This document shows positions 15,754 through 32,484 of a DNA stretch of 64,000 nucleotides, piece after piece (the stretch's first letter is position 1; each line of letters begins with the position of its first letter). Made by a program: the position numbers and the translations under genes. The DNA lies in NCBI GenBank assembly GCA_018873225.1, contig JAEILZ010000001.1, positions 186,001-250,000 of the forward strand, read 5' to 3'. The stretch is from [Phialemoniopsis] sp. UDSM-2020 (taxonomy: Eukaryota > Ascomycota > Sordariomycetes > Thyridiales > Thyridiaceae). Below the pieces are notes generated by a model, which did not search any database, was not told where the DNA came from, and saw nothing but the letters and a program-made list of their open reading frames with translations.

Positions 15754-16851
15754 CTAGTTCATCTGCGTGCATTCCAAACACATGTCAGCAATTCCCTCTT
15801 TGCGCTGGTACCTGGCAAGAGCCTCGAGCATCGCATTTTCCTCGAATACATCAAGTTGCTCCAAATCAAACTGCGCCTGTGTGACGTCAGTAGCGGCCAA
15901 GTGTCCACAGGAAGGGTGTGAAAGAGAAGCCCTACACATCGGGCACATGTAGTTGTCCGGAACACTGTCGAGCCACTCCTCCATGCAATCTATGCCCACG
16001 AAATGGCCACAGTGCAAGACGTAAGCGTCTTCCAGGCTTGGACGCGAGCCCACGCCTCTAGAGACACCGAAGACGTCGAGTCCCTTGATGCAGATAGGAC
16101 AGTTGACGACAAAGTTGCGATCGTCAGCCCAAGCTTCGAGGTAATCCGGCCAGTAGTTGATCTCTTCGGGCATCTCGCCCTCCTGACGGGGCTCTTCGTG
16201 CTCGTCAGCCTCAGGTCCGTCTTGACCGAAGATGGACTCCCGGTTGTCCGGAGCTTCGAATAGTTCTCCGGGCCTCAGCTGCTGACCATACAGGGCTCGG
16301 GTGGCTCCCTCCCTGATTACCCTCAGTATATCGTCAAGTTCGTCATGGTCATGGGCGCTTCTCAGTCGCTGCCTCAACGACTCACCCATCACCTGCATAT
16401 CATACAGAGCGTCCCCCAGTCGGTCGGCCTCTCGTCGTGTAAGGTCCACGTACGCAGGAAATACCTCGAAGTTTGTTCGGGCATGGTCAAGATTGGGCTC
16501 GAGTGCGGTATTGTTCTCAGGAGCACTGGGCTGTTGTGGTGGAGGCCGGGAGTTCGCTCCGTTGGCCAACGAGATGCGTCCGATTTGGGTGAACGGGGGA
16601 GTTTGGTACCATCGATCAGCAGAGACTGGAAATCTGCCAGGTACGGCGCCAAGGGGAAAGTCGCCCCGGACGGAGGGGAGGAGTGTAGATTCTACCACCA
16701 AAGGTGGAGGTACAGGTCGCGTGACTTGCTGCGTATTGCGCGCATTGGCTGGGCCTGTCGACAATTCAGCCGGAGGGTGCAGCACTCGGGTGCGCGCTCC
16801 CGCAACTTGGTGGACGCTCATCGGGGTAAAGTAAGGTTCGGGAGTATCCAT
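15754..16851 (-). CDS. RING-finger protein, copy 1 (C-terminal RING plus terminal CxxC)
   Basis: A single exon of 365 residues from ATG 16851. The frame continues upstream without ATG to about 16968, so an extra 5' exon is possible. The first 200 residues are Pro/Ser-rich and probably disordered. Residues 251-306 form a RING-like cluster: CPIC, then HCGHFVGIDC, then CPMC. The fifth zinc ligand of a canonical C3HC4 RING (normally His or Cys, three residues after the His) is Gly. After the RING come HPSCGH and, at the very C-terminus, CLEC. The WPD..CPIC, CGHxVGxxC and terminal CxxC pattern recurs in the gene at 31021, so the two are paralogues. Expected role: E3 ubiquitin ligase; substrate unknown. 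Confidence 0.82.
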   Translation of the reverse strand: MDTPEPYFTPMSVHQVAGARTRVLHPPAELSTGPANARNTQQVTRPVPPPLVVESTLLPSVRGDFPLGAVPGRFPVSADRWYQTPPFTQIGRISLANGANSRPPPQQPSAPENNTALEPNLDHARTNFEVFPAYVDLTRREADRLGDALYDMQVMGESLRQRLRSAHDHDELDDILRVIREGATRALYGQQLRPGELFEAPDNRESIFGQDGPEADEHEEPRQEGEMPEEINYWPDYLEAWADDRNFVVNCPICIKGLDVFGVSRGVGSRPSLEDAYVLHCGHFVGIDCMEEWLDSVPDNYMCPMCRASLSHPSCGHLAATDVTQAQFDLEQLDVFEENAMLEALARYQRKEGIADMCLECTQMN

Positions 16852-17900
16852 CACTTCCTCGGGGGCTCCGAGATGCGCGAGGTCGTCAGGGCTTTCTGAA
16901 TAAGAGGTATGTCTTCCAAAGTTGGTTGGTTGTTGAGTTGTTCGAAGGGGATCAGTTGGCAGAAACAAGTTGGATCAAAAGGGCACATCTCGAGACGTAT
17001 AGTGTTGGCTTCAAAGATTGAGATCACCGGCTTCTGTTGATTGCGAGTCACTGAGACCCCAACGGAATAGTTGAGGCTGTAGTGACATTTATACGATCTG
17101 GAAGTGGAAGGTGAATGAGGTTCGGACAAAGCCGTTGTAAGTAGAAACATGCCTGGAAGTGTAAAGCATTGTCTCGAAGTTCGTGGTGAAGCCGAATGAC
17201 AATAAACAAGAGACAAGAGAGAAGTGAATCATGACTACCAACGCCAGAACTAACCAGCGCTTCGAGCTCAGAAGGCTGTTCCGATAGTTGTTGAAAGATA
17301 CCTCGCGAATTCCCTTGCACAACAGTAACCACAATCGAAGTTTAGGCAAAGATTGTTCCCAAAGTGAAGTTCCCTACAAATTCACTGGCAGGACCTAGTA
17401 AGTGCCTTGCGTCCCGAGTACAAAGACAAAGAAGACGCACGGAAACAAAGTCCTTTGTCTCAATCCCGTGACAGCTTTACTATGAACTCTGCGCTTGTTC
17501 CCGTCTACTTGGCGCACAAGAGCTTTGCCTCAGTATTCTGGAGCCTGGCATGTCATCGTGTTGCCACGAGATTTTCAGGAGTTTATCCGCCGGTGTTACT
17601 GATTTACCTTGTATCACTCTATTACCACTTCTGTATTTGGTTGGAGACTCAAGTAGGCAAGTAGAAGTTCCTTCTCAGGCAAAAGGTCTACCCAGTTTCA
17701 GCAACGTTCTATGGCGCGTCTACAGTTGTTCCACTACATATGCTGCGTTCCCAGCTATAAAAACTTTTTAGTCACGGTGACGGTGAGTGTTGGTGCGGTC
17801 CTCACGATCGTGTCAAAGGAGGAAGAATTCCACTTGAACAAAGATAGGCTTCCACAACTTGTTTTAATTCACCCACGAGAGACTGGTCTACTCTTGACAT
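16852..17900. other. 1-kb intergenic region at the left border of the catabolic cluster
   Basis: No gene is recognised. The region is AT-richer than its surroundings, and open frames of up to about 120 codons lack domains or codon bias. It contains the RING gene promoter and the 3' end of the SDR gene. Confidence 0.45.
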
Positions 17901-18897
17901 TTATACGGTAAGCACACCTCCATCAATGACGATATCCTGGCCAGTGATGTAAGAACTGGCAGGTGACAGTAGAAATGCTGCCAACCCTTTGATCTCTGCA
18001 CGATCGGCAAAACGCTTCATGGGAATGAACTTCTCATGGGCCCCAAAGAACTTTTCAATATCTTCACCGGCCGTGCCTGCGGTAGTGAAGAAGCCGGGGC
18101 TGATGGCGTTGATCCTGATGTTTCTCTCCGCGTACTCAGCCGCCACGGACCTCGTGAAGGCGCTGACAGCACCTTTGGTTGCAGAGTAGACGCAGTTCTT
18201 CCGGCCGGGAACTTGAATGTGAGCTGAGATGGAAGCAATGTTCACGATCGAACCGCCCTCTCCATGCTCCAACATCCTGCGGATGGCGAACTGCGAGTTG
18301 GTAATGGTTCCGATAACCTTCAAGCCGTCAGCACACTGATTACTCCCGACTTTAGACCTTAGGGAAGCAACATACATTGATGGCCATAACATTTTCAACA
18401 CCCTGTAGGTCAAAATCGACAAAGTCTCCCCGATGGGCAATGCCCGCATTATTGATCAGGCAGTGTACCTTGTCAAAATCCTTGTCGATAGCATCCCAAG
18501 CAGACTTGACGGCTTCGTAATCTTTGATGTCCACTCTGACACGATAGTGAGCGATATGAAAGAGACTTGAACTTTCCAGTATGAGACTTACTGGTAATAT
18601 TTCCATTTGATTTTCAGCTCATCAAGCAAGGCCAGGTCATCCGATGGCTCCTCCAGCACATCCAGGATCGCAAGGTTCGCGCCTAATTCGGCGCATGCAC
18701 GCCCCATAGCCTGTCCGAGACCTCGTGCACCACCTGCAAAGCATGTGGTCAGCTCTGGGTAGGCTTGACAAAGATGTTGTCCCAAATCACTACGTACCTG
18801 TGACGACGACTGTCTTGCCCTTGAGCGACAGCTGCTCTACTACAGTTGTCCTCCGGTATACATCATTGTATGGGTCGTAGCGTTCTTCGAGAACCAT
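17901..18897 (-). CDS. short-chain dehydrogenase/reductase (SDR 1 of cluster)
   Basis: Four exons (18897-18798, 18733-18592, 18535-18376, 18317-17901) give 272 residues. A Rossmann cofactor motif TGGARGLG (33-40) is followed by NNAG (CLINNAGIA), the catalytic Ser in ASIS near 163, and Y178-S-A-T-K182. INAISPGFF and the C-terminal SSYITGQDIVIDGG strand are typical of classical SDRs, which use NAD(P)H to oxidise or reduce alcohol/carbonyl groups. The first 25 residues precede the usual SDR start. Three copies of the cluster motif CGGRRNNNTGCGC lie 240-360 bp upstream (19138, 19160, 19246), the highest number of any promoter in the cluster. All introns are 56-64 bp. Confidence 0.93.
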
Positions 18898-19137: not shown

Positions 19138-19150
19138 CGGGAATCTGCGC
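19138..19150 (+). promoter_or_regulatory. cluster motif, site 1 (CGGGAATCTGCGC)
   Basis: Exact match to CGGRRNNNTGCGC, 241 bp upstream of the SDR 1 start and only 9 bp from the next copy. Confidence 0.7.
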
Positions 19151-19159
19151 TCCCCACTC

Positions 19160-19172
19160 CGGAATTTTGCGC
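19160..19172 (+). promoter_or_regulatory. cluster motif, site 2 (CGGAATTTTGCGC)
   Basis: Exact match in the SDR 1 promoter, in direct orientation with site 1; the motif starts are 22 bp apart, about two helical turns. Confidence 0.7.
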
Positions 19173-19245
19173 CTCTCCGCTAAAAGCCCAGGTTGTGGAT
19201 CTCAGGGGCACATGACACTACCAGACAAGGGGCAAGGAATGATCA

Positions 19246-19258
19246 GCGCAAAACCCCG
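19246..19258 (-). promoter_or_regulatory. cluster motif, site 3 (CGGGGTTTTGCGC on the minus strand)
   Basis: Exact match in inverted orientation in the SDR 1 promoter, about 350 bp upstream of its start. Confidence 0.65.
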
Positions 19259-19596
19259 AGTTCCACGTCCCGAGCTACGGCAATGTGATATGCCTGTGAG
19301 CATTGCGGCTAGCCTGTGATTTGCACTGGGTGAGTGCTGACAGAGAATCGCTTCAAGTCCTGAGGATGGGGCCTGGTAGGAGAAGCAAGTCCATTACGCG
19401 AAGATCACGACTGCGCAGTATGCCTGGAAATACGCATAATGACACTGATCCAGCCTTCGAGCTCGAGGGACAGGTTTGCAAATACGTGTGTAGATATCAG
19501 ATAGTCTAGAATAAGCATACCCTGTTATGCTGGCCAGTCATGTCGGGAAGTCCTCCTGCAACCGCCGTACGATTCGTGCCGACCCCATAGACACAT

Positions 19597-20649
19597 TCAG
19601 TGTACGTTGCTTGACAGATTGATTGCCCTCACTGGCGGATTCAAGTCAGGACGCCCAACAGAAACTTCTGCCCTGACGTTCTTCAAGTCAATGACGATAG
19701 TGGCCAATGTAGAGATCCTCTCCAAGGGTTGGACATTCGGAGGAGATGACCTCGAAATTGAATTATGTCCATCATTTCGATCGCACAGCCGACTTCGTAT
19801 GCTTTGAAATGAAGGTTTCGTGTCTTTCGAGAGTTCTTGAATGCGTTCGAGTCGAGTGAATGAGTTGGCGGCGGGATGATCGACCAGTTGAGTCTTTGCC
19901 TGCGCCGAATAGAGGTGGTTGGTGTGGAAGACGGATCCGGTCTCGTCGAGGTCTATGTCGAAATTGCCTTTGGGGCTGACCTCAATGGTCTTGCAGAGAC
20001 CGGACTGGTCGGCGAGGAGGAAATTGGCGGTCGATGCAACACCCGCGTCATCCAGGAGAAGGCGTGCCTGAGTGAAAGACTCGCATGCCAGAACCTCTCG
20101 TAGCGCAATGTGAATGGGTAGCTTTTCAAACGAGCACGCACCGCAGCGGATGGCATTGAGACAGACTCCAAGCCCACGGTCATTGAAGCCGTACTTTCCG
20201 ACTAAGCCCGCCTCCGCGACGATGTAAATGGCCGGCGAGTCGTTGGGGTGAATTTCCAACCCAACAACCGCTCCGCTTTGACTGTCCTTCCAGTCCCAGT
20301 TCTGAGCGATGAAGGTCTCGTCTCCATTCACTTGGCCGAGGGAGGTGCAGCCGTCCGTGTAGTTGGTCAACGCAATCTCACTGCGTGTGTTAAGGGCGAG
20401 AATCTCTTCGAACCGAACTCCGGAGGCTTGAGCAATGGCCTCCATCTCATCGACTAGGTGTGAACATCTCTGACGCAAGACTGGGAGCCATTGAAGTGCT
20501 GTCTCGCAGGACTCCTGCCATGTATTGCCGGTAGTCTGTCGGAAGAGTTCGGTGTAAGACGAAATAGAATGCAGAATCTCGTCGCGAGCTTCGGTGCCGT
20601 GTTGTGTACCGATCTCTCGCGGAGTTCCTTTGCAGATGATGTGCTTCAT
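19597..20649 (-). CDS. C45-family Ntn hydrolase, acyl-CoA:6-APA acyltransferase-like
   Basis: An intronless gene of 350 residues from ATG 20649. KGTPREIGTQHG near the N-terminus and DGCTSLG at 99-105 are diagnostic of the peptidase C45/acyltransferase family. These enzymes cleave themselves before the Cys (here G100/C101), and the freed Cys is the N-terminal nucleophile. FIAQNWDW and LGVCLNAIRCG are further family segments, and the length is close to the penicillin acyltransferase (about 357). The C-terminus is SNVH, not the peroxisomal ARL-type signal of PenDE, so a cytosolic enzyme is more likely. No isopenicillin synthase or NRPS lies nearby, so penicillin synthesis is not implied; hydrolysis or transfer of an amide-linked acyl group is. 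One cluster-motif site is 128 bp upstream. The amidohydrolase at 29406 may act on the same substrate class. Confidence 0.9.
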   Translation of the reverse strand: MKHIICKGTPREIGTQHGTEARDEILHSISSYTELFRQTTGNTWQESCETALQWLPVLRQRCSHLVDEMEAIAQASGVRFEEILALNTRSEIALTNYTDGCTSLGQVNGDETFIAQNWDWKDSQSGAVVGLEIHPNDSPAIYIVAEAGLVGKYGFNDRGLGVCLNAIRCGACSFEKLPIHIALREVLACESFTQARLLLDDAGVASTANFLLADQSGLCKTIEVSPKGNFDIDLDETGSVFHTNHLYSAQAKTQLVDHPAANSFTRLERIQELSKDTKPSFQSIRSRLCDRNDGHNSISRSSPPNVQPLERISTLATIVIDLKNVRAEVSVGRPDLNPPVRAINLSSNVH

Positions 20650-21073
20650 GACTAAGTAGCTTGAGTGAATATACGTCTACCAAGAGGGTGAGTGATTCAG
20701 AACGTGGACACAAGCAAGATTTTATGCAGTAGTCACCCAGTTATATCTGTGGTCGAGCTCAGGCTGGACCATCGTTCGGGAAAATGCGCGGATCCACTCC
20801 GAGAGTCGCGGAGAAGTCACAGAAGATCATATCCAGCATGAACAGGCTGTGCAATGCATTTGACTATGGCTTTCTATACAACACATGGCGTGTGTTCTAA
20901 CATGGCATACATGTAAACTCTTCTAGCATCATCTTGCACTGAAGGCTACCCAACCACTTCTCACTAACCCTGCTGACTTCAAACCCGCCATCTAAGAGCT
21001 ACGGGAGGCCTCGGTTGATCTGTCACGAGGAATGGCCCCCTTCCTCATCTCATGATATCAGACGACTGCTTGC
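20650..21073. promoter_or_regulatory. promoter of the C45 hydrolase
   Basis: This 424-bp region holds one exact cluster motif (20777) and, 8 bp further on, an inverted repeat CTCCG-N7-CGGAG (20797-20813). The distal part is the 3' end of the permease gene. Confidence 0.6.
20777..20789 (+). promoter_or_regulatory. cluster motif, site 4 (CGGGAAAATGCGC)
   Basis: Exact match to CGGRRNNNTGCGC, 128 bp upstream of the C45 hydrolase start. The centre is AAA where most other copies have TTT or mixed bases, showing that the central triplet is free. Confidence 0.7.
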
Positions 21074-22745
21074 CTACATGGCATACCTGAAGAACTTGTT
21101 CTCCTTATCAGTCAGATCCAGGAACTCTTGGTTCGGGTCCCGTTCCTGGGGGTTCTCGGCCAGCTCGCGGTCCTTACGCTTGTTGGCGCTCCAGTTGACA
21201 ATCCACAGGCCGACAACCGTTAGCATTGCGGCTATCCAGATGGAAACGACCGCGATCTTAGCCTTGCGGTAGTAAGGAGGATCGCGGAAGAGCTGAGGAC
21301 CAGCCAAGAATCCCACACAATAGCCGATCATGGTGATGGCATTCACGGTAACTTTCTTGGTGTAACCGAGCGTGTTGGTCGAGATCAAGCTCAGTATCAT
21401 GATCAAGGAGGATGGCGGGGACCCGATTGCAATGTAGTAGCCTATCACCTGGCCGACACGGGCCCGTGTAGGGTTGTCAGCGGTGGGTAGGCCGGCCATG
21501 AGAGCTGCTCCAAAGATTCCAAAGAGGAAGGCAACGACGCTCATGAGATGGCGCTTCCGGGTTCGTGAGGCAATGAAGCAGCAAAACGTTGCCATGAGTA
21601 TCTGCCACGCTCCACCCGGCATAGCGAGCAGAAGTGTCTCGGTAGTCGACCAGCCATAACTCCTGATAAGGATGGCGAAAAAGGTCACAATACCACCGTT
21701 GGGCAGACACGAAAAGACAGTGTAGAAGAAGAGGAGCCAGGTCTATGCTTAGTGTCAGTAATCGTGCCTCAAATGTAAGCTCAGCTCGTGTCAAAGAAGT
21801 TCGTACTCGAATGTCCAGCATGGCCTCTCTGAATTGGTGCCATTTCCACTTGCGGTTACCCATGCCTTCCTGGTTTGCTCGAAGACGCTCGATGGCGAGG
21901 ATCTGGTCGTGTTCATCCAGCCACTTCGCCTCGAGAATGTTGTCTGCCATGAACCACATGCCTGCGCCGTAGATTGTTGTGATGAGTCCAGCGAGGATGA
22001 AGATGATCTTCCAACCAGCAAGAGCTGTGTTCGGGTGCCGTTTGATGCCTTCTGCGATTCCAAAGACAATAGCACCTCCGGCTATCTGTGAGACTCCATT
22101 CATGGTGAACCAGATACCGATGCGGTTGATCTGCTCCTGCTGGCGGTACCAGCGAGCCGTGATGAGAACGAATGCCGGCGTGACAGCACCTTCGAGGGCG
22201 CCCAGGATCGTCCGTACGACCATGAGCTGAGCAAAGTTGGTGCATGCCGCCATGCAGCACAAAACCGCTCCCCATGCGACCACACAGATGGAAAGGTACT
22301 TTGTGACAGAGAACTTCTGGAACATGATATTGTGTGGATACTCAAAGACCAAATATCCGGCGTAGAAGATGGACCCGGTCCACGCGTATTCATGTTCGTT
22401 GATGTTGGTAGCCTCTTGAAGCCCCATGATGGAAGAGTAGGACAGCCTGTACAAGAATAAGTAAGATCACTAGACCTAAGAGTGGAATTTCTCTACTCAC
22501 GTAGTCTTGTCGAGATACTGCAGAAAGTACAAGCCACACATGACGGGTAAGATATGACGGTCGATTTTGCGGAGAATCCGTTTGTTGTCCTCGTCGGTCA
22601 AGGTCAAGTGTTCGTGTGCATTAGCAAAAGCTAACGCTTTGTCTCCATCGCGACGTCCATTAGTCGTAATTTTGCCAACTTCATCATGTTGATGTTGGGT
22701 GACCATATCTTTGTCGTTGTGGTGTTCGGTAGCCACAGTGGCCAT
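21074..22745 (-). CDS. MFS anion:cation symporter, Dal5/allantoate-permease-like
   Basis: Three exons (22745-22501, 22446-21807, 21742-21074) give 517 residues. The N-terminal cytosolic tail ends in KRILRKIDRHILPVMCGLYFLQYLDKTTLSYSSIMGL (split by intron 1), the standard opening of the Dal5 family: RKIDxxxLP, then LDK. EYAWTGSIFYAGYLVFEYP, ALEGAVTPAFVLITARWY and MPGGAWQI are further family segments. Twelve helices can be placed, in two blocks around a central loop. Known members import allantoate, ureidosuccinate, dipeptides, nicotinate or other organic anions by proton symport. In this cluster it probably imports the substrate of the hydrolases. Its promoter has one exact motif copy (23099) and two degenerate ones. 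Confidence 0.93.
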
Positions 22746-23069
22746 CTTTACATTCGAAAAGACTTGTTGCTTGACTCGATACCAAACGAAGCCTGGAAGT
22801 GTAGTCGCAGGGCGTTGCTAGGACTGACAGGAGAACAGCGTCTACCCTTTGAGATTAAGTTGGGTGAACCCAGCTGACTATATATGCCGTGGCATCGTTC
22901 AGACAATGATCCAAGGATGATAACGCAGCCTTGGCGTGGATCAATATGGCTAGCTGTGATACATTGCGAGAGTCGTTATCGTCCTGGCCGTAGGTAGTTC
23001 GTCCAAGGTGGCATGCAAAATTCCGCTAGGTGTTGGTGTGTACGAAACAACTATGGGGTCTGGTCTTGA

Positions 23070-23082
23070 TGGAGTTTTGCGC
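23070..23082 (+). promoter_or_regulatory. degenerate cluster motif (TGGAGTTTTGCGC)
   Basis: One mismatch (first C to T) to CGGRRNNNTGCGC in the permease promoter, 17 bp from the exact copy at 23099. Confidence 0.4.
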
Positions 23083-23098
23083 TCTGCTAGCATGAATC

Positions 23099-23111
23099 GC
23101 GCAAAATCCCG
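23099..23111 (-). promoter_or_regulatory. cluster motif, site 5 (CGGGATTTTGCGC on the minus strand)
   Basis: Exact match about 355 bp upstream of the permease start, followed on the plus strand by GAACCGG. Confidence 0.7.
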
Positions 23112-23511
23112 AACCGGCCAACTACTGGAGTGGCTCCGTGGATCTACCTAATGACGCTAAGGAATCAGGCCATGCGGAGAAAGCTGGGGAGAACGACCCC
23201 ATGGGTGTCCACCCGACACTTTCAACGCTCAAGAGGTCGGAAGACGCGGAGATACAGGGTCCAGACGTGGGCACAATGGCCCATTGAACGCGTCAAGGCA
23301 TATCATGGGCCAATCGAGTGGTTGACTTCCACCCACACGAGGTTCGGGAGGGCACGGAATGCATTCAAGGCAGGATAGAGGTAGCCTACGGTAAGCAACT
23401 AGCGGAGGCACAGGAGTTTCTTCAACAATGACTGACGCGAAGAAGCACCGCTGGAATCTATCACTCAGCTGAAGTTATCAAGAATGAGCCAAGGGAGGGT
23501 ATTATGTACGA

Positions 23512-25265
23512 TCAAATACTAGCTAAAAAGCCATTCCAGACCTCATAAATCTCCCTACCACCTCTCCAGTGTCTGCATGTAGCTGCCAGCACGCTAGAGC
23601 AGTATGACAATTCTTTGACAACTTCTCCCCTTTCAACCCATGCCTTCAGAACTCCACTAATGAGCACACAGCCAGCACAGAAGGCTCGGAGTGCTGAGAC
23701 ATAGGGTGGGATGAACGGTCCTTGTCGAAGGAGAGCTTGATGATGGACATCTAGAACCTTGGTGGCCGCGACAAGTATGCGTGCTCGAGCCACGTGGAAG
23801 ATACAGGGCGAAAGGCTCAGCTCGGTCCAGTCACTCCCATTGGAGCATGTTGAGTGGTCTATGCAGAGCGGCAGGAGCATCATCCATGCATCTTGAGCAA
23901 AGTCATTGTCTTCGTTAGTGTCTGAAAGCTGCTGTATCAAAGCCGAAGGACTATCAGGTAACGATAGCCTGCAGTCAAATGCCGCATTTTCGACGCGGAA
24001 AAGCTGGTCGGCCATCCGGATTTGCTGAAGAATACCAAAAGCAAGATCGTCAACCGTAGGTTCTGCCGGAGCTATTGAGTGTAGCATCGTAGTTGTTTGT
24101 AACAATGTGGTCAAAGTCCTTTGAGCTGTTCAGAAATGATTTGATGAAGGTTGTGGTTACTACGTACCGTTCAATCTTGATCAACGTACTCATGAGTATG
24201 GAAATACGCGAAGCTGGAAATGCTGCCTCTGTGCCGTCCCCTGGTGCTGTGGCATATTGAATAGCCCCGTGTTTCTTCCTTCGATGCCAGCCAAGCTGGA
24301 CGCAGATACTCACACCCCAGTCGAGGAGCTCCAGAACGATACCACGATCTGGGTCGATGAGCTCGAATATCATAAGTAGAAGCACTGCGACCAAGGCTGC
24401 CTCATTTCCTGTAACTAGAATATGATTGATGTACTCATCAGCCCATTCCCTGCAAAGTTTTGCCACTGTAGACCACGATGGATCGTAAATTGCTTCGTAC
24501 GATGCAGCAATGCCACATATCATCAGCACTTGAAACCGCGTGGCTATCTCTAGTCGACTGACAGGTACAGAGACGTCCAGTTCGTATGGTATTTCAAAGA
24601 TTGGGTAGATTTGCAATATGTTCTTGTTGTAGCATTGTATCAGATGATCAACGACAGAGCTTGAGAGAAGAGTCCGTTCGGGCTTGTAGAAAGGGAACAG
24701 GTCACTAGGTAGACCAGTCCGAGCAACAGCCTCAGTTGGGGAAAACTTGCCCGCAGTATTCGGAATGATCTGTGCTACACTGGTGGCAAGAACTGCAGGA
24801 GCAGAAGATGCAAGTGAATGTATGGAAGTTTCAGTCGTTCGGGATGGTGAAGAGACTGTCTTATGCCGGAAATCTTGTAGCGAAGAGAGATCTGAGACAG
24901 CGGTTTGAGAATCCGGCGAAAAGAAGTGGACGCCAATCATATCTTGCTCGGTTCTGCCCTGCTGCGTTTGTAGTGACTGCTCGCACTCATTGATGTGCTT
25001 GTAAAGTTCGTCCACATAGCTTTGAACAATCAGTGAACCTAGAAGCGCTGTCCCATCTCCAAGCTGCTTACCTTCTTGAGTAGAGCTTGCCGTCATCTGT
25101 CTCCCGGAACTGGCATTGCACCTTTCTCTTAACACAATTGGCACACGAAGGTAGCTTAGAATCGCACTGAGACAAAGAGATAAGTCATTCCGCTATCAAT
25201 GAGTGTGGCAGGCGCTGGCGAACCTTGATCTTTCTTGCTTTGCACCTTACGCAGCGCGGTAACAT
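23512..25265 (-). CDS. Zn2Cys6 transcription factor A of the cluster
   Basis: Four exons (25265-25224, 25166-25072, 25019-24168, 24118-23512) give 531 residues. The cluster starts at residue 5: CVRCKARKIK on exon 1 (14 codons), then CDSKLPSCANCVKRKVQC on exon 2. An intron therefore cuts the zinc cluster just before its third Cys. Intron 2 (52 bp) ends at AAAG; the earlier acceptor at TTCTAG would leave a 33-bp intron and the wrong frame. The linker runs into SYVDELYKHINECEQSL (dimerisation helix) and then a fungal-specific regulatory domain with LIQCYNKNILQIYPIFE and ISILMSTLIKIER. It is divergent from factor B (25677), with the same intron positions and a 95-nt exon 2 in both. It is a candidate binder of the cluster motif (inference). 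Confidence 0.9.
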
Positions 25266-25676
25266 TATTGTCGTCTCCTTGCCTCTGTAGATAGAGATAT
25301 GTAACAATTGCCTCGTTTTTCGTCGTCAACCATGCCGTTGACTGTGGGATAACCCCGCCACCCAAAGAACAGAGATGGAGTCGACCTAGTGCATTGCGCC
25401 CGAGTCAGGGAGGAAGGGTTCCCCATGCATGCTAGGGCTACTAGGTTTGCTAGTACGTAGTAGATATGGCTGATGGCATCCCAATCTTTTCAGTACGTAA
25501 TGAACCCCACATAGTTATCATGCTGAACATCTCTCGAACCCGCTTTCCATCTCCAATTCGCTCAGGTGCGCGTGCTATCTAGACTGGACTTTCGATCTCG
25601 ATAAGATTCATCCATGGGCAGACAGACAAATCTCTTGGACAACCCGCTCAAATGAGAACGAAGGTAATTGCAAGGG
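25266..25676. promoter_or_regulatory. bidirectional promoter between the two cluster regulators
   Basis: This 411-bp region lies between the starts of factor A (-) and factor B (+). No exact cluster motif was found. A poor match, CGCTCAGGTGCGC, is at 25559-25571. The repeats CTAGGGCTACTAGG and CTAGTACGTAGTAG lie at 25432-25463. The regulators may therefore be controlled differently from the structural genes. Confidence 0.5.
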
Positions 25677-27834
25677 ATGGCAACGTCTCACAAAACCACT
25701 TCAGCCAAAGCTTGTGTTCGCTGTCAGAGGCGTAAGACAAAGGTCCATACCGCACTCAAGATAAAGATCCTGCAACTGGAGAACTGACTTCGACAGTGCG
25801 ATCTGAAACTACCCCGATGTGGCTCCTGCAGCATTGCAGACGTCGCATGCACCACGCTTGATACCACTACAGGCAATGAACGACCAAGAAAGTCAGTTGC
25901 ACCCTGCTGCCCGTCGAGTGTATGGGGTTTCTTTCTTGCCCAGTTGATTGATGCCCCTATCCGTATGGTAGTCTTGTGCAGCACCTAGAGAACAGGCTTA
26001 AAGACCTACGATCCCAGCTAGCGAATGACACACAGAAGGCGAAGCAGCTTCCCACCACGGCGGGTTATAAAGTCGCCGCCCAGCTACTAACTTTGACGAC
26101 ACCAACTCGTGGTTCATTCTTCCACCACACGGGACAACACCCATCCCTCCTATTCTTACGACCCTCGTGTCCTCCACTTTCCATGGTATGGCAAAAGTCC
26201 ACTTGCAATCAAGATCATGCCCTAAACCCTGCACGGACCTATGCCGAACACGATACCACATGGCAGGAAGATATCCAATCTGGGTCAGTGCCCATGGTCA
26301 ACCTCAACTCCATACCTCCAACAATACTGAAGAATATCTTCAACAACTATCTTGAAGGACAGCTTCGTCAGTATCCCTGTGTTGGAGCTGCCTGGTTATC
26401 AAAGACTTTCGAGAAGGTCGTACGAGAGATCAGTGCCATCGCGGATAGTGGATTGACACACACCATCTCACCGGACTCCGAACTCACACACTTCCATTAC
26501 TTCGCCGTCTTCATAAGCCTCGCTATCTCGCTCTCGTCACTAGCCCCAAGCTCCGCTTCCCGTGCCCAACTTGCCTCAGACTCGTTTTTCAAATCTGCAC
26601 TACTGCATTTCATTCGGATGCCGAGCAATGTCACAATACAAACTGTCCAATCCTCATTAATGCTAGCCCATTACGCCCAGGCAAATCCAGAGAAGGTTGA
26701 CTGTTGGCTTTGTATCATGTCGGCTACACGAGCAGCACTTACGCTCAGACTGCACCGTATCACCACCAAGACGCAATCACACGAGTCGGCGATGCTTCAA
26801 AGACTATTCTGGGTGGTTTACGGAAAAGAACGAACCATTTGTTCGGTTCTACATCTCCCTCTCACGTTCCCAGAGGAGTCGATTGATCCAGGAGTGAGTT
26901 GTCCTGCACTGCAAATCTTAAACCTTTGTCTTTCTGACACCGACCACAGCTCGATGATGCGATAAGTGATCCGGGAGAGCTGGGAATGCGAGTTCAGAGT
27001 CAGACCCATGCTTACCACATATACCTTGTTCGTAAGCTGCAGGCTGAGGTACACCGAGCTCTATATCTCTGCCATAATCTGCCGCAGTACGACGTATGGG
27101 ATCCTGAACCTTGGATATCCTCCGTGGTATCCAGGCTGGACGACTGGTACGCAGAAGCTAATGAACTGTCAAAAATGGGATTAATGGAGTTCAGAGCAAC
27201 TATATACTTGCACTCAAAACTCAGAATCTTCCGTCCTACCCCGCGGCTCAGGATACAAACTGCTCAGCATCGGCATACATGCCTTGAGACTGCTCGACTG
27301 CTTCTGGAGGAGTACAAATCCCTTCTTCGGAAAGGTCGACTTTTTTGGACATGGCACGCCGTGCATTATCTTTTTGAGGTAGCAATTGTCATGCTACATG
27401 CATGCTGGACCGCACGAAACAGTCTACCTCAATACTCTGAAACGCTCGATCTGCTGCTGAACTCTTTGCCCTCATGCCTGGACCTGCTTTCCGGTCTAGG
27501 CAGACGCTGGCGAGCTGCAGATACTTGCGTTGAGCATATCCGACCACTGGTCGACAAGACACGAAAAACGATTGAAAACAAGGCTAATGGCATACCCGTT
27601 GACGACCTTTTTGAGGAACAAATGAGCACGGATCTTGATATGCTGCTATTCCCTGATCAGATCAGCCAGCCAGATCCGTGGGAATCGATGGCAACAGAAG
27701 GCTATTCCATGGACCTTTCTGGTTCACTGGACGATTTTGACTGGAACCTTGACTGGGAATCTTTGGATCTCTTTCAGACACATGCCACGCAGGAATGGGA
27801 TGATCATATCATGAATGGTAGTACTCTCTTGTGA
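25677..27834 (+). CDS. Zn2Cys6 transcription factor B of the cluster
   Basis: Four exons (25677-25742, 25797-25891, 25972-26893, 26950-27834) give 655 residues. CVRCQRRKTK on exon 1 and CDLKLPRCGSC..VAC on exon 2 form the binuclear cluster, interrupted by an intron exactly as in factor A. Exon 2 is 95 nt in both and ends in the same phase. The linker runs into LVQHLENRLKDLRSQL, a heptad-like helix. The middle domain contains FHYFAVFISLAISLSSLAPSS, VQSSLMLAHYAQANPEK and RLFWVVYGKERTICSVL, typical of the fungal-specific domain. The C-terminus is strongly acidic with aromatic residues (DDFDWNLDWESLDLF), a classical activation region. The stop is 13 bp from the stop of the convergent SDR 2. Intron 2 (80 bp) has a less typical donor (GTCAGT). 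Confidence 0.88.
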
Positions 27835-27847
27835 AAGGTCCAATTCA

Positions 27848-28922
27848 TCAAGTGTCTCTTACAATCAGGGGTTCGCCCTTCTTTTTCAGCCCCAACATTC
27901 TTCCTCCATTGACTTCGATGATCTTGCCGTCCACGAAACATCCTGCCTTGCTTGATAGCCAGATGCAACTCCCGACCATGTCTTCAATGTTGCACATTCG
28001 TTGGCCGGGGATGTACTGACACAGACCAGTATTGTTCAGGGGGTTCCCAGGCTCGCTCGGATTCATTGCCGATGCAACCAGTCCTGGAGAGATTGCATTC
28101 ACGCGAACTAGAATGTCACAATCAGCTTCTGTATTTTCGCTTTTTTCGTGAGGGGAGCATACTGTAAAAGTCCCTAAACTCCGCCGCCAAGATCCGGATG
28201 AGGTGGTTGACAGCTGCTTTGCTGAGCTGGTACGCGGGAACGAGCTGGTCGTTGTGCGAGCCAGCAGCACTAGTGAACAGGATGACACTGCCGCGTCCGT
28301 CACCGTGCTCTGCAGACTTTCCTAGCAACTCGACGAGACCTGCAGTGAGGAAGTATGGCGCAAATACATTCACCTTGAATGCCACATCCCATTCATCCCA
28401 GCTAGCTGAAGAGACAGCGGCCTCTAGCTCTTGCAGGGAGCCTCCTGGCTTGTATGATATCGGATTTAGGGGGCGCAGACCGGCGCATTGGATCAGGTGG
28501 TCGAGTGATTTGTTCTTGGTTTTGATCTCCTCCACGATCTTCTTGATGCCCGCTTCGGTGGAGAGATCGCCGACAATGCTAAAGGGCCCTTGGGTCAGTA
28601 CTGCTCCGATCTTAAAGACCGAACTTAGTAGTTCAAAGGATTGCTGGGAAAGATCGAAACTTGCCTGAGAATTTCGCTTTGTGGTGCTGCCCCTAGTACC
28701 TCTTTCGTGGTCTGTTCAAGACCTTCCTCGTTGCGGTCGATGATGGTGACCTTGCATCCATGGTAGGCAAAACCTACGGCAAGCATTCGGCCAATGCCGG
28801 ATCCTGTCCAAGACTATCAGTGAGTTTCCTTGATCATTGATAGCAGTAAACGGACCACCGCCTGTAATGGCAACGGCTCTTCCTTTGACGGAGAATAGCG
28901 ACTCGAAACTAAGATTCGACAT
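27848..28922 (-). CDS. short-chain dehydrogenase/reductase (SDR 2 of cluster)
   Basis: Four exons (28922-28859, 28803-28665, 28578-28163, 28107-27848) give 292 residues. TGGSGIG (20-26) binds the cofactor. HLIQCAGLRP replaces the usual NNAG, LFTSAAG carries the catalytic Ser, and AYQLSKAAV supplies Tyr and Lys. VNAISPGLVASAM follows as in classical SDRs. Intron 2 is GC-AG (donor GCAAGT, 28664); the nearby GT at 28660 would break the frame. The C-terminus ends in LKKKGEPLIVRDT. It shares a 483-bp bidirectional promoter with the amidohydrolase at 29406, including two inverted cluster motifs, so the two are probably expressed together. A role in oxidising or reducing a cleavage product is plausible. 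Confidence 0.92.
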
Positions 28923-29105
28923 GGCGTTGGGTTCAATTATGATGACCAGGATTACTTCAACTTGGTCCCTGAACTACAAAATTGCTATGCCGTAAACACC
29001 AAGATGAAGCTCTTATCAGGAGCTTTTATCGCTTGGACTTGGCAATGTATGCACACTAGCAGGTAATGGGGCTCTTACATGATTTTGGGGTGATATCTGG
29101 GGTTA

Positions 29106-29118
29106 CGGGATTGTGCGC
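29106..29118 (+). promoter_or_regulatory. cluster motif, site 6 (CGGGATTGTGCGC)
   Basis: Exact match, left half of an inverted pair in the SDR 2 / amidohydrolase promoter. Confidence 0.7.
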
Positions 29119-29134
29119 CTTTTGAGATGGAAGA

Positions 29135-29147
29135 GCGCACTTTTCCG
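29135..29147 (-). promoter_or_regulatory. cluster motif, site 7 (CGGAAAAGTGCGC on the minus strand)
   Basis: Exact match, right half of the inverted pair. The TGCGC ends of both copies point to each other. Confidence 0.7.
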
Positions 29148-29405: not shown

Positions 29406-30752
29406 ATGGTTTGTGACTGTTGCGAGAATGCCGGGGTACCTGCTGCAGTACCACAGCAAGCCAAACCAGCCCCTTTCACGGTTCACACCTCACAGTTGTT
29501 CGACCCCAAGCAGCTCAAGGTGCTTACAGATGTATCCATCCGTGTAGACCCAGCAACATCCCTCATCATAGAAGTCTACAAGCGCACCGACGATCTTGAC
29601 ACCGATGGCCTGGCTTCGGGAGATATTGACTTGCGCGGCAAGTTCGTCATGCCCGGCTTTGTCGATGCCCACACACATATCTTCCTGCACTCATATGCGG
29701 AGAACCCATCGGTCAATCAGAAGCGAGATGAAAGCTTCGTTGAACGAGTCGTCAGGTCTATCAACCATTGCAAAGCGGGATTGATGGCTGGCTACACGAC
29801 ATACCGGGACCTGGGATCCGAAGCCATGGCAGACGCCGATTGTAACGTTCGGGATGCTATCAACCGTGGACTTGCGGTTGGGCCTCGGCTCTTTGTGTCG
29901 ACCAAGGTGCTGGCTTCGACAACAAGCTACGAACCGAGAACCGAGAACTCATTTGGGGGCACTTGCCTGCCCTCGAGCAGCGAGTGGGCGGATGGAGAGG
30001 CGGAGATTCGCAAAGGTGTACGGAAGCGCATCGGCGCAGGGGCAGACATCATCAAATTCTACGCCGACTACAGGCGGAGACTCCTCCGAGCGCCGCCCAA
30101 GCAACAGCACCCGTACATCGCTGGGATCAAGTTTCCGAATCTGAACGACAACCCAGACTACCTTGTCTACACGGAAGACGAGATGCGGGTCATCGTCGAG
30201 GAGGCCACGATGGCGGGCGCCCCTGCCGTTGCCCATGCCAAACTCAAGGAAGCCATCATGAAGGCGGTACGTGTGGGTGCTCTATCGATCGAGCACGGCT
30301 ATGAAGCAGACGAGGAATGCTTCGCGGCCATGAAACAGCGGGACACTCTCCTCGTCCCGACGTTGGCCATCGTGGAGCAAGTCTACGCGCCAGAAAAGTT
30401 CGAGAAGATCAAGGCCATGGTCAAGAGTGCGTACGACTACGGCGTCAGACTTGCTTGCGGAGGCGACACGGGTACATTCAATCACGGCGAGAATGCCCGG
30501 GAGATGGAGATCATGATTGAGGCTGGCATCCCGACTTTGGATGTCCTGGCTGCATGCACGATGAATGGGTGGGAGTCGTGTGGTGGACTGCTGTGCGGCA
30601 AGAAATTTGGTGTCATTGAGCATGATTTCTGCGCTGATATTATCGCGCTCGATGGCGATCCGACAAAGGACATGTCAGCCTTGCGGCGAGTTGACTTTGT
30701 AATGAAAGATGCGCAAGTCTTCAAGAGGGATGGGCAAGTTGTGTTGGAATAG
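29406..30752 (+). CDS. metal-dependent amidohydrolase (imidazolonepropionase/prolidase/ochratoxinase-like)
   Basis: An intronless gene of 448 residues. GKFVMPGFVDAHTHIF gives the strand-1 HxH metal ligands (H89, H91). IIKFYA holds the Lys expected to be carboxylated and bridge two metals (K217). H277 and H297 (IEHGYE) are the other His ligands, and D354 in CGGDTG is the catalytic Asp. The order and spacing are those of the amidohydrolase superfamily, in the branch of imidazolonepropionase-like and Xaa-Pro dipeptidase-like enzymes that also includes fungal amide-cleaving carboxypeptidases such as ochratoxinase. It has no obvious signal peptide and a Cys-rich start (MVCDCC). In this cluster it probably cleaves an amide or cyclic amide of the imported compound, before or after the C45 enzyme. 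The exact substrate is unknown. Confidence 0.92.
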   Translation: MVCDCCENAGVPAAVPQQAKPAPFTVHTSQLFDPKQLKVLTDVSIRVDPATSLIIEVYKRTDDLDTDGLASGDIDLRGKFVMPGFVDAHTHIFLHSYAENPSVNQKRDESFVERVVRSINHCKAGLMAGYTTYRDLGSEAMADADCNVRDAINRGLAVGPRLFVSTKVLASTTSYEPRTENSFGGTCLPSSSEWADGEAEIRKGVRKRIGAGADIIKFYADYRRRLLRAPPKQQHPYIAGIKFPNLNDNPDYLVYTEDEMRVIVEEATMAGAPAVAHAKLKEAIMKAVRVGALSIEHGYEADEECFAAMKQRDTLLVPTLAIVEQVYAPEKFEKIKAMVKSAYDYGVRLACGGDTGTFNHGENAREMEIMIEAGIPTLDVLAACTMNGWESCGGLLCGKKFGVIEHDFCADIIALDGDPTKDMSALRRVDFVMKDAQVFKRDGQVVLE

Positions 30753-31020: not shown

Positions 31021-32484
31021 TCAACCAGCGACCGGTCCGAATTGGCTCGCCGCCGGTGAACAGTGGCGGCAGAAGGACTTCGCAGTACCACCCTCTTGCT
31101 TGGTCAATGGGACGAAAGTACGGCTGAGAACATCACCATCATTGGCTGGAACAACTAATGGATGGTTCTGGAGCCCACAAGATGGGCAGTCTAGTGAGTC
31201 CCTACACACGGGACAGACTTTGCGGACCGAGGTCCGCAACCAGGTTTTCATGCAGTTCACTCCTACCATGTGGCCACAGCGGAGGACACAAGCGCGTTCC
31301 ATATTTTGCTCTGCGGCGTTGTCGTCATGATGGGCGCCCCATACCTCGAGTGGATCAGTGCAAATGACACAGTCGACCACAGGCTGATTCCTGCCTTCTG
31401 GACATAAGTGGAACATCCTGATGTCAGGCCAAAAGTTGGTCCGCTCTCTTGGCTGATCTTGGCTGGGTGCTTCACCTTCGGACTCGTTGGCATTCAAAGT
31501 TACGTGGTTCTCACGTCCCTGTCTGGCGCGGTTCTGCGCAACCGCGAACTCGGCCCTCGCCACGATGTCATTGGCTCGCTGTTCTGCCCGAGCATATGTG
31601 GCTTCAGCCTCGGTATAGGTACGCGTAGCCTGGGCGAGCTGAATACCGACGTCGTTGAACCTTCGTGCCTCCCGCTGCAGCGCCGCAAGTTCTCTTCTGC
31701 TTGAGTCCTGAGGATGGCTGAAGATACTCCGAGCCTCGGACGAATCAACGGCAGGAGTGGAAGGACTCGCACCTGTGAACACATTACCCGAAAACAGTAG
31801 ACTGCCCGAAGAGGCATTCCTCGGACCGGAGAGACTACTAGGCGCAGTGGTCGATGAAGAGCGCGGAGTAGCACTCGTGCCACGGAATAGACTACCAGGA
31901 ACCCTGGGCGCGTTGGCTTGGCTGGCGAAGAGGGCTGGAGGCGCAGCCAAAGGCTGTGGAGCGTTATTGCGTTCATTGAACAGGCTGCTGGAGACTGGCG
32001 AGGGGCTCCTTGGAGCGGCGAAGAGACTGGCAGCAGAAGTTCGAGAACGAGTCCGAGCAGCTGGTCCTCCAAGGAGACTGCTCACCGCTGGAGCAGGGCT
32101 GCTTGCGCCGAATAGGCTAGGATGCGGAGCAGACGACCGAGGGGCAGCAGTTGATAAGGCACTTGCTGGATTGAATAGGCTGGGAGTCGAAGCGGAATGA
32201 GAAGCAGTATCTACGCCAGCAAACAGGGGACCGCTGCTTGCACCGAAGAGAAAAGCACCCTGTGACGCATTGGCAGAGGAAGCCTCGGGTACGGCGAAGC
32301 GATGATTCGATGGGGCTCGTGTGCTCGAGGAACCGAAACGTCGTTGGAAAGCGTAAAAGGCCGAGGATTCTGCGGTGTTCGACGAGGTCGTTTCGCGAGG
32401 TCGTAACAGTGATGCAGGAGAGTACGAAGGAGCATCAGCTGTGTCCGGCATGGACTCGGAATCACCGAACAGTGAGCGACTCAT
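31021..32484 (-). CDS. RING-finger protein, copy 2, with FG-like repeats
   Basis: A single exon of 487 residues from ATG 32484. The first 270 residues are Ser/Ala/Pro-rich and carry repeated SLF/LFG units (SLFGDS, FLFGASSG, SLFNPAS, SLFGASS, SLFAAP, SLFNERN, SLFRG). They resemble the FG repeats of nucleoporins, although most units lack the Gly. A coiled-coil-like stretch rich in Arg, Glu and Ala follows (RRELAALQREARRFNDVG). The RING-like domain is at about 372-427: CVIC, RCGHMVGVNC, CPVC, then DCPSC and a late FCRHC. As in the paralogue at 15754, the fifth zinc ligand is Gly. It is probably an E3 ligase; the repeats hint at phase-separated or nuclear-pore-linked localisation, which is inference. 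It marks the right border of the catabolic cluster. Confidence 0.83.
   Translation of the reverse strand: MSRSLFGDSESMPDTADAPSYSPASLLRPRETTSSNTAESSAFYAFQRRFGSSSTRAPSNHRFAVPEASSANASQGAFLFGASSGPLFAGVDTASHSASTPSLFNPASALSTAAPRSSAPHPSLFGASSPAPAVSSLLGGPAARTRSRTSAASLFAAPRSPSPVSSSLFNERNNAPQPLAAPPALFASQANAPRVPGSLFRGTSATPRSSSTTAPSSLSGPRNASSGSLLFSGNVFTGASPSTPAVDSSEARSIFSHPQDSSRRELAALQREARRFNDVGIQLAQATRTYTEAEATYARAEQRANDIVARAEFAVAQNRARQGRENHVTLNANESEGEAPSQDQPRERTNFWPDIRMFHLCPEGRNQPVVDCVICTDPLEVWGAHHDDNAAEQNMERACVLRCGHMVGVNCMKTWLRTSVRKVCPVCRDSLDCPSCGLQNHPLVVPANDGDVLSRTFVPLTKQEGGTAKSFCRHCSPAASQFGPVAG

Follow-up and report, generated by a model that had tools for sequence, protein, structure and literature searches.

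Candidate binding sites of a cluster-encoded Zn2Cys6 regulator in the promoters of a fungal amide hydrolase gene cluster

The promoters of one gene cluster in the window (the whole 64-kb stretch of DNA analysed) repeat a 13-bp word, CGGRRNNNTGCGC, which raises the question of whether this word is a protein-binding site and, if so, which factor reads it. The cluster encodes two short-chain dehydrogenases, SDR1 (17901..18897, minus strand; PF13561; hand-spliced model of four exons) and SDR2 (27848..28922, minus strand; assigned from its translation and the naming in the original prediction), a C45 hydrolase (19597..20649, minus strand; PF03417 AAT), an MFS permease (21074..22745, minus strand; PF07690 on the second exon; 'Dal5-like' is a name from the original prediction only), and an amidohydrolase (29406..30752, plus strand; PF01979) whose relatives include prolidases and, among solved structures, ochratoxinase (4C5Y). 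Between the permease and SDR2 lie two genes for Zn2Cys6 factors, termed A (23512..25265, minus strand; PF00172; model coarse at the C-terminal exons) and B (25677..27834, plus strand). In the first 361 residues of the hand-spliced model of factor B, both PF00172 and PF04082 score above cut-off. The cluster is flanked by RING-finger-like proteins (15757-16857 and 31024-32484, both minus strand), which are 40% identical across the 104 positions aligned around the RING and have Pfam RING matches under the curated cut-offs; they may represent an old pair that encloses the cluster.

A scan of the whole window finds exactly seven exact copies of CGGRRNNNTGCGC, on the strands and at the positions originally listed, and none elsewhere; the mean of 100 shuffles is 0.73, in place of the approximately 0.5 first calculated, and the largest count is 4. 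The gene models place all seven copies in promoters, outside modelled exons and 128–354 bp from start codons, in agreement with their earlier assignment to SDR1, the C45 hydrolase, the permease and the SDR2/amidohydrolase pair. The copies at 19138..19150 (plus strand, CGGGAATCTGCGC), 19160..19172 (plus strand, CGGAATTTTGCGC) and 19246..19258 (minus strand, CGGGGTTTTGCGC) have the SDR1 start 241, 263 and 349 bp downstream, respectively. The C45 start is 128 bp downstream of the copy at 20777..20789 (plus strand, CGGGAAAATGCGC), and the permease start is 354 bp downstream of that at 23099..23111 (minus strand, CGGGATTTTGCGC). The divergent SDR2/amidohydrolase promoter contains the copy at 29106..29118 (plus strand, CGGGATTGTGCGC; 184 bp to SDR2, 288 bp to the amidohydrolase) and, convergent with it across a 16-bp gap, that at 29135..29147 (minus strand, CGGAAAAGTGCGC; 213 and 259 bp, respectively). 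The A/B promoter of the window has no motif copy.

When one mismatch is allowed, the window holds 27 matches, exact copies included, versus 18.45 expected, and at least 27 are reached in 2 of 100 shuffles. One such match is a new, eighth site at 23070..23082 (plus strand, TGGAGTTTTGCGC), the convergent partner of the copy at 23099; these two sites are arranged exactly as those at 29106 and 29135, including the 16-bp gap. The CGG and TGCGC parts, originally described as fixed, are so in the seven exact copies, but the copy at 23070 starts with TGG, not CGG. The three central bases had been taken to vary freely, but each of the first two is an A or a T in all seven copies and likewise at 23070. 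Comparison of 40 flanking columns around the eight copies reveals no likeness past the core except two weak columns, a C five bases past the core (in 7 of the 8) and a T ahead of the core (in 6 of the 8), which may extend the site. Genome-wide, a full copy facing TGCGC at a gap of 4–34 is found in 24 rows, compared with 16 for the reversed-pattern control. The gap is 16 in three of the 24, which represent two places, both in the window cluster, as the 29106/29135 pair is counted twice; the convergent pair was rejected as a genome-wide composite element, since among these rows the 16-bp gap is confined to this cluster.

The motif was chosen by eye, and its repetition might be an accident or the leftover of a local promoter duplication. 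In a word-choice test on the cluster promoters (2791 bp), covering all 8-base two-block words (3+5, 4+4 and 5+3; gaps 0–12), CGG-N5-TGCGC ranks first with seven copies. Some word reaches seven copies in only 1 of 1000 dinucleotide shuffles, and the best word has at most five in 999 of them; the original observation of a count far above random holds. The spacing is also specific: within the cluster promoters CGG-Nk-TGCGC occurs seven times at k=5 and once in total over the 14 other values of k (0–14), and the rest of the window has two occurrences at k=5 and up to six at other spacings. Against an accident or a duplication stand this fixed spacing, the distribution of the copies over both strands and four promoter stretches, their flanks, which differ beyond the core apart from the two weak columns, and the related sites in sister clusters (see below). 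Such an origin is therefore highly improbable. The local density of seven copies in 10 kb corresponds to an approximately 90-fold enrichment over the genome rate of 0.08 per 10 kb (343 in 44.18 Mb), with a Poisson probability of 3e-12 before allowing for motif choice.

Across the genome, the 343 motif copies compare with 337 of the reversed pattern; the exact and one-mismatch scan suggested in the original prediction thus gives an excess in the window and none for the exact motif in the genome. Since there is no general excess, it is the clustering, rather than the word, that is unusual, and the word alone defines no regulon; a genome-wide regulon of the word is unsupported. A tighter form, CGGRRWWNTGCGC, is found 69 times versus 46, or 61 versus 46 (p ~0.18) after removal of the seven window copies and one copy on another contig, C5. 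Of its 62 sites outside the window, the C5 site was read separately and 23 were checked for coding potential, with 17 lying in stop-free frames of at least 150 codons and 6 not. The C5 site (C5:1669016) had been listed before any sister cluster was recognised, and it lies in the C45 promoter of one; the probability of at least one of the 62 sites landing in either sister cluster, C5 or C9 (approximately 20 kb), is 0.03.

Genome searches with the amidohydrolase and C45 proteins identify neighbouring pairs on C5, C9 and C10. After the factors themselves, the best relatives in the genome are C9:1278136 and C5:1673639 for factor B, and C9:1281171 and C5:1671078 for factor A. Because these best relatives adjoin C45 and amidohydrolase paralogues, the window (C1), C5 and C9 each carry a cluster with a C45 hydrolase, an amidohydrolase, A and B, and in all three A and B are divergent. 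On C5, a close permease relative lies beside the amidohydrolase (59% over the first 49 aligned residues), and on C9 this place is taken by a more distantly related MFS-like gene (27%, E 5e-9). A P450 gene (PF00067) is located at one end of both sister clusters (C5, L080 1-1008; C9, L060 156-830), and none was seen among the genes of the window cluster, which include two SDRs. The C10 group is an amidohydrolase–C45–MFS set (C10:623500-633560; L081, L058, L072), near which the searches with factors A and B find no relative of either. A neighbouring C10 gene resembles a C2H2 zinc finger by eye, with no Pfam match to two pieces.

The promoters of the sister clusters contain a related site, the symmetric N6 form CGGANNNNTCCG. 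The C5 promoters (1722 bp) have four copies, a number reached in none of 1000 shuffles: two before the C45 gene, one between A and B, and one between the amidohydrolase and the permease. They also contain one CGGAAAGATGCGA and one copy of CGGRRNNNTGCGC, which 11 of 1000 shuffles reach. The C9 promoters (2735 bp covered; 2903 + 197 bases of the cluster, C9:1276497-1279399 and C9:1280901-1281097, lie outside the coverage) have two copies of CGGANNNNTCCG, reached by 3 of 1000 shuffles. One lies in the A/B promoter and the other in that of the amidohydrolase/MFS pair, and both kinds of promoter carry it in C5 too; the C45 promoter of C9 has no CGGANNNNTCCG, and the 2735 bp covered contain no copy of CGGRRNNNTGCGC. 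The original prediction had named loss of the copies in orthologous clusters with conserved genes as evidence against it. In the paralogous clusters, to which this check was applied, the exact motif is mostly missing, with one copy in C5 and none in the covered part of the C9 promoters, and the symmetric N6 form takes its place.

When the right half is allowed to be CCG or GCG, the window promoters give seven GCG and no CCG, with GCG also at 23070, and CCG is found in four of six sites of this class in C5 and two of two in C9. A looser pattern for both forms, CGGRNNNNTSCG, gives two matches in C9 against 0.26 expected (32 of 1000 shuffles), and its C5 count is reached in none of 1000. As C5 had been inspected before the N6 reading was adopted, C9 alone serves as a semi-independent test; the more distant C9 permease and the looser-pattern counts weaken the sister-cluster case a little.

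Paralogue loci elsewhere in the genome serve as controls. The 44 match rows give 24 loci, of which 16 (64 kb) were kept and eight dropped (two in the window, three on C5, two on C9 and one overlapping another on C10); two of the 16 are the C10 amidohydrolase–C45 pair. None of the 16 loci contains CGGRRNNNTGCGC, so a similar density in unrelated promoters, named in the original prediction as contrary evidence, is not seen; together with the local density, this supports a bipartite protein-binding site that ties the cluster promoters together, as originally proposed from the sequence. CGGANNNNTCCG, which has 505 places in the 44.18 Mb, is at chance level in the controls (1 versus 0.73 expected), the single copy being CGGAAACGTCCGC at position 1115 of L073 (C1:6178961), 386 bp ahead of the matching region of a C45 paralogue. 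Five matches of CGGRNNNNTSCG fall in four of the 16 loci, including CGGGATTTTGCGT in L065. Over the remaining 50.5 kb of the window, CGGRRNNNTGCGC and CGGANNNNTCCG are absent and CGGRNNNNTSCG has four matches, and in the four C10 loci all three patterns are absent.

These results bear on the possibility that the sites are read by a factor whose gene lies elsewhere in the genome, with A and B doing other work. Such a factor would account for the window A/B promoter, which lacks a site, unlike those of C5 and C9, and for the 336 further motif copies in the genome. However, the word shows no excess over its reversed pattern genome-wide, and the N6 sites exceed expectation in the clusters that share A and B but not at the other paralogue loci, where their number is that expected by chance; both points make an outside factor unlikely.

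The sites of C5 and C9 led to a reading of the window motif as CGG, six bases, GCG and C, and hence to the PPR1 spacing class and to a comparison of factor B with solved structures. The sequence itself is best described as CGG-N6-GCG(C), a lopsided version of CGG-N6-CCG. According to the excerpted text of PMC11534201, PPR1 binds CGGN6CCG. Among solved structures, PPR1 (1PYI) ranks first for the DNA-binding part of factor B (E 1.4e-11; next family, 4e-5), with a gapless alignment through the zinc cluster, the linker and the start of the coiled coil. PPR1 is also first for the B factors of C9 and C5, with one gap each. The two best solved relatives of factor A are Cep3 and PPR1, which match it about equally well and solely in the zinc cluster. 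Factor B has at least seven relatives with 28–39% identity among the best 7996 candidates by shared words that were scored. Linkers resembling that of PPR1 may be widespread among filamentous fungi, which is a point against the argument from PPR1. Nevertheless, the motif does not stand alone: the sites of the sister clusters and the resemblance of factor B to PPR1 put it next to the CGG-N6-CCG class of Zn2Cys6 sites.

Yna1 and Yna2 of Hansenula polymorpha, two Zn2Cys6 activators of one nitrate cluster, form a heterodimer (PMC4559421, in excerpt). The N6 sites and the match of factor B to PPR1 favour B as the binder, possibly with A, a pairing for which Yna1/Yna2 are a precedent. The seven copies and the site at 23070 are thus predicted to be binding sites of the cluster's own Zn2Cys6 regulator, probably B and perhaps B with A.

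In one version of this explanation, which overlaps with the main one, an A–B heterodimer reads the site, one subunit contacting CGG and the other GCGC. This would account for the lopsided form of every window site, and it fits the divergent A/B pairing in all three clusters as well as the Yna1/Yna2 example. However, C5 and C9 have the same pair and yet mostly symmetric sites, and since a PPR1 homodimer already binds its site asymmetrically (PMC3358323, in excerpt), asymmetry needs no second protein. A heterodimer is accordingly a possible but somewhat doubtful refinement.

In the preferred explanation, factor B, perhaps with the divergently encoded A, would bind CGG-N6-GCG(C) as a dimer, with the PPR1 spacing retained and the right half altered from CCG to GCGC. 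In response to a substrate signal, the dimer would activate uptake, through the permease, jointly with the breakdown genes, namely those for the C45 hydrolase, the amidohydrolase and the two dehydrogenases. Binding by factor B, co-induction of these genes and a catabolic pathway are what we infer from sequence data. More tentatively, the three sister clusters might be insulated from each other, if the duplicated A/B pairs stayed with their genes and the window factor and its sites shifted together from CCG to GCGC. A Gln directly follows the second zinc cysteine in window factor B alone, Arg or Lys being present in six of seven aligned B-type parts, and our guess is that this residue might cause the half-site shift. 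C5, which has both site kinds, would be an intermediate if the insulation reading were true. One genome may thus hold a small series of diverging regulator–site pairs, with C9 symmetric (in the part covered), C5 mixed and the window lopsided, and such a natural series would make it possible to study how regulators and their sites diverge after duplication. The result is a concrete, testable regulator–site assignment for a fungal amide hydrolase cluster that is uncharacterised, and the sites offer a handle for finding the inducer and therefore also the substrate.

No description of a GCG variant of the N6 site, or of this gene set, was found in open-licence PMC full text, and TGCGC is absent from the literature matches listed in that search. 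The UaY site of Aspergillus nidulans, which serves purine genes in nitrogen catabolism, is an N6-spaced inverted CGG and is thus alike in spacing; it is symmetric, whereas the window site is lopsided. Yna1/Yna2 and A/B are alike in that two Zn2Cys6 factors are encoded beside cluster genes, with catabolic control shown for the former; according to the excerpted source, the Yna motif, unlike that of the window, is CGGAGA, perhaps accompanied by a partial inverted repeat, and heterodimerisation, demonstrated there, is for A and B a proposal by analogy (PMC4559421). The targets of PPR1 are uracil or purine genes in the excerpted text of PMC11534201, in contrast to the amide hydrolases, dehydrogenases and permease of the window. 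With PPR1 the window motif shares the CGG left half (in all seven exact copies, by definition of the pattern) and the six-base spacing, as CGG-N5-TGCGC is equivalent to CGG-N6-GCGC. The right half is CCG for PPR1 and GCGC in all eight window sites, and the window motif is therefore not the PPR1 site itself: it is classed as a site that would work like the PPR1 class and is no member of it, and the CGGANNNNTCCG sites carried by the sister clusters on C5 and C9 are a further likeness to that class.
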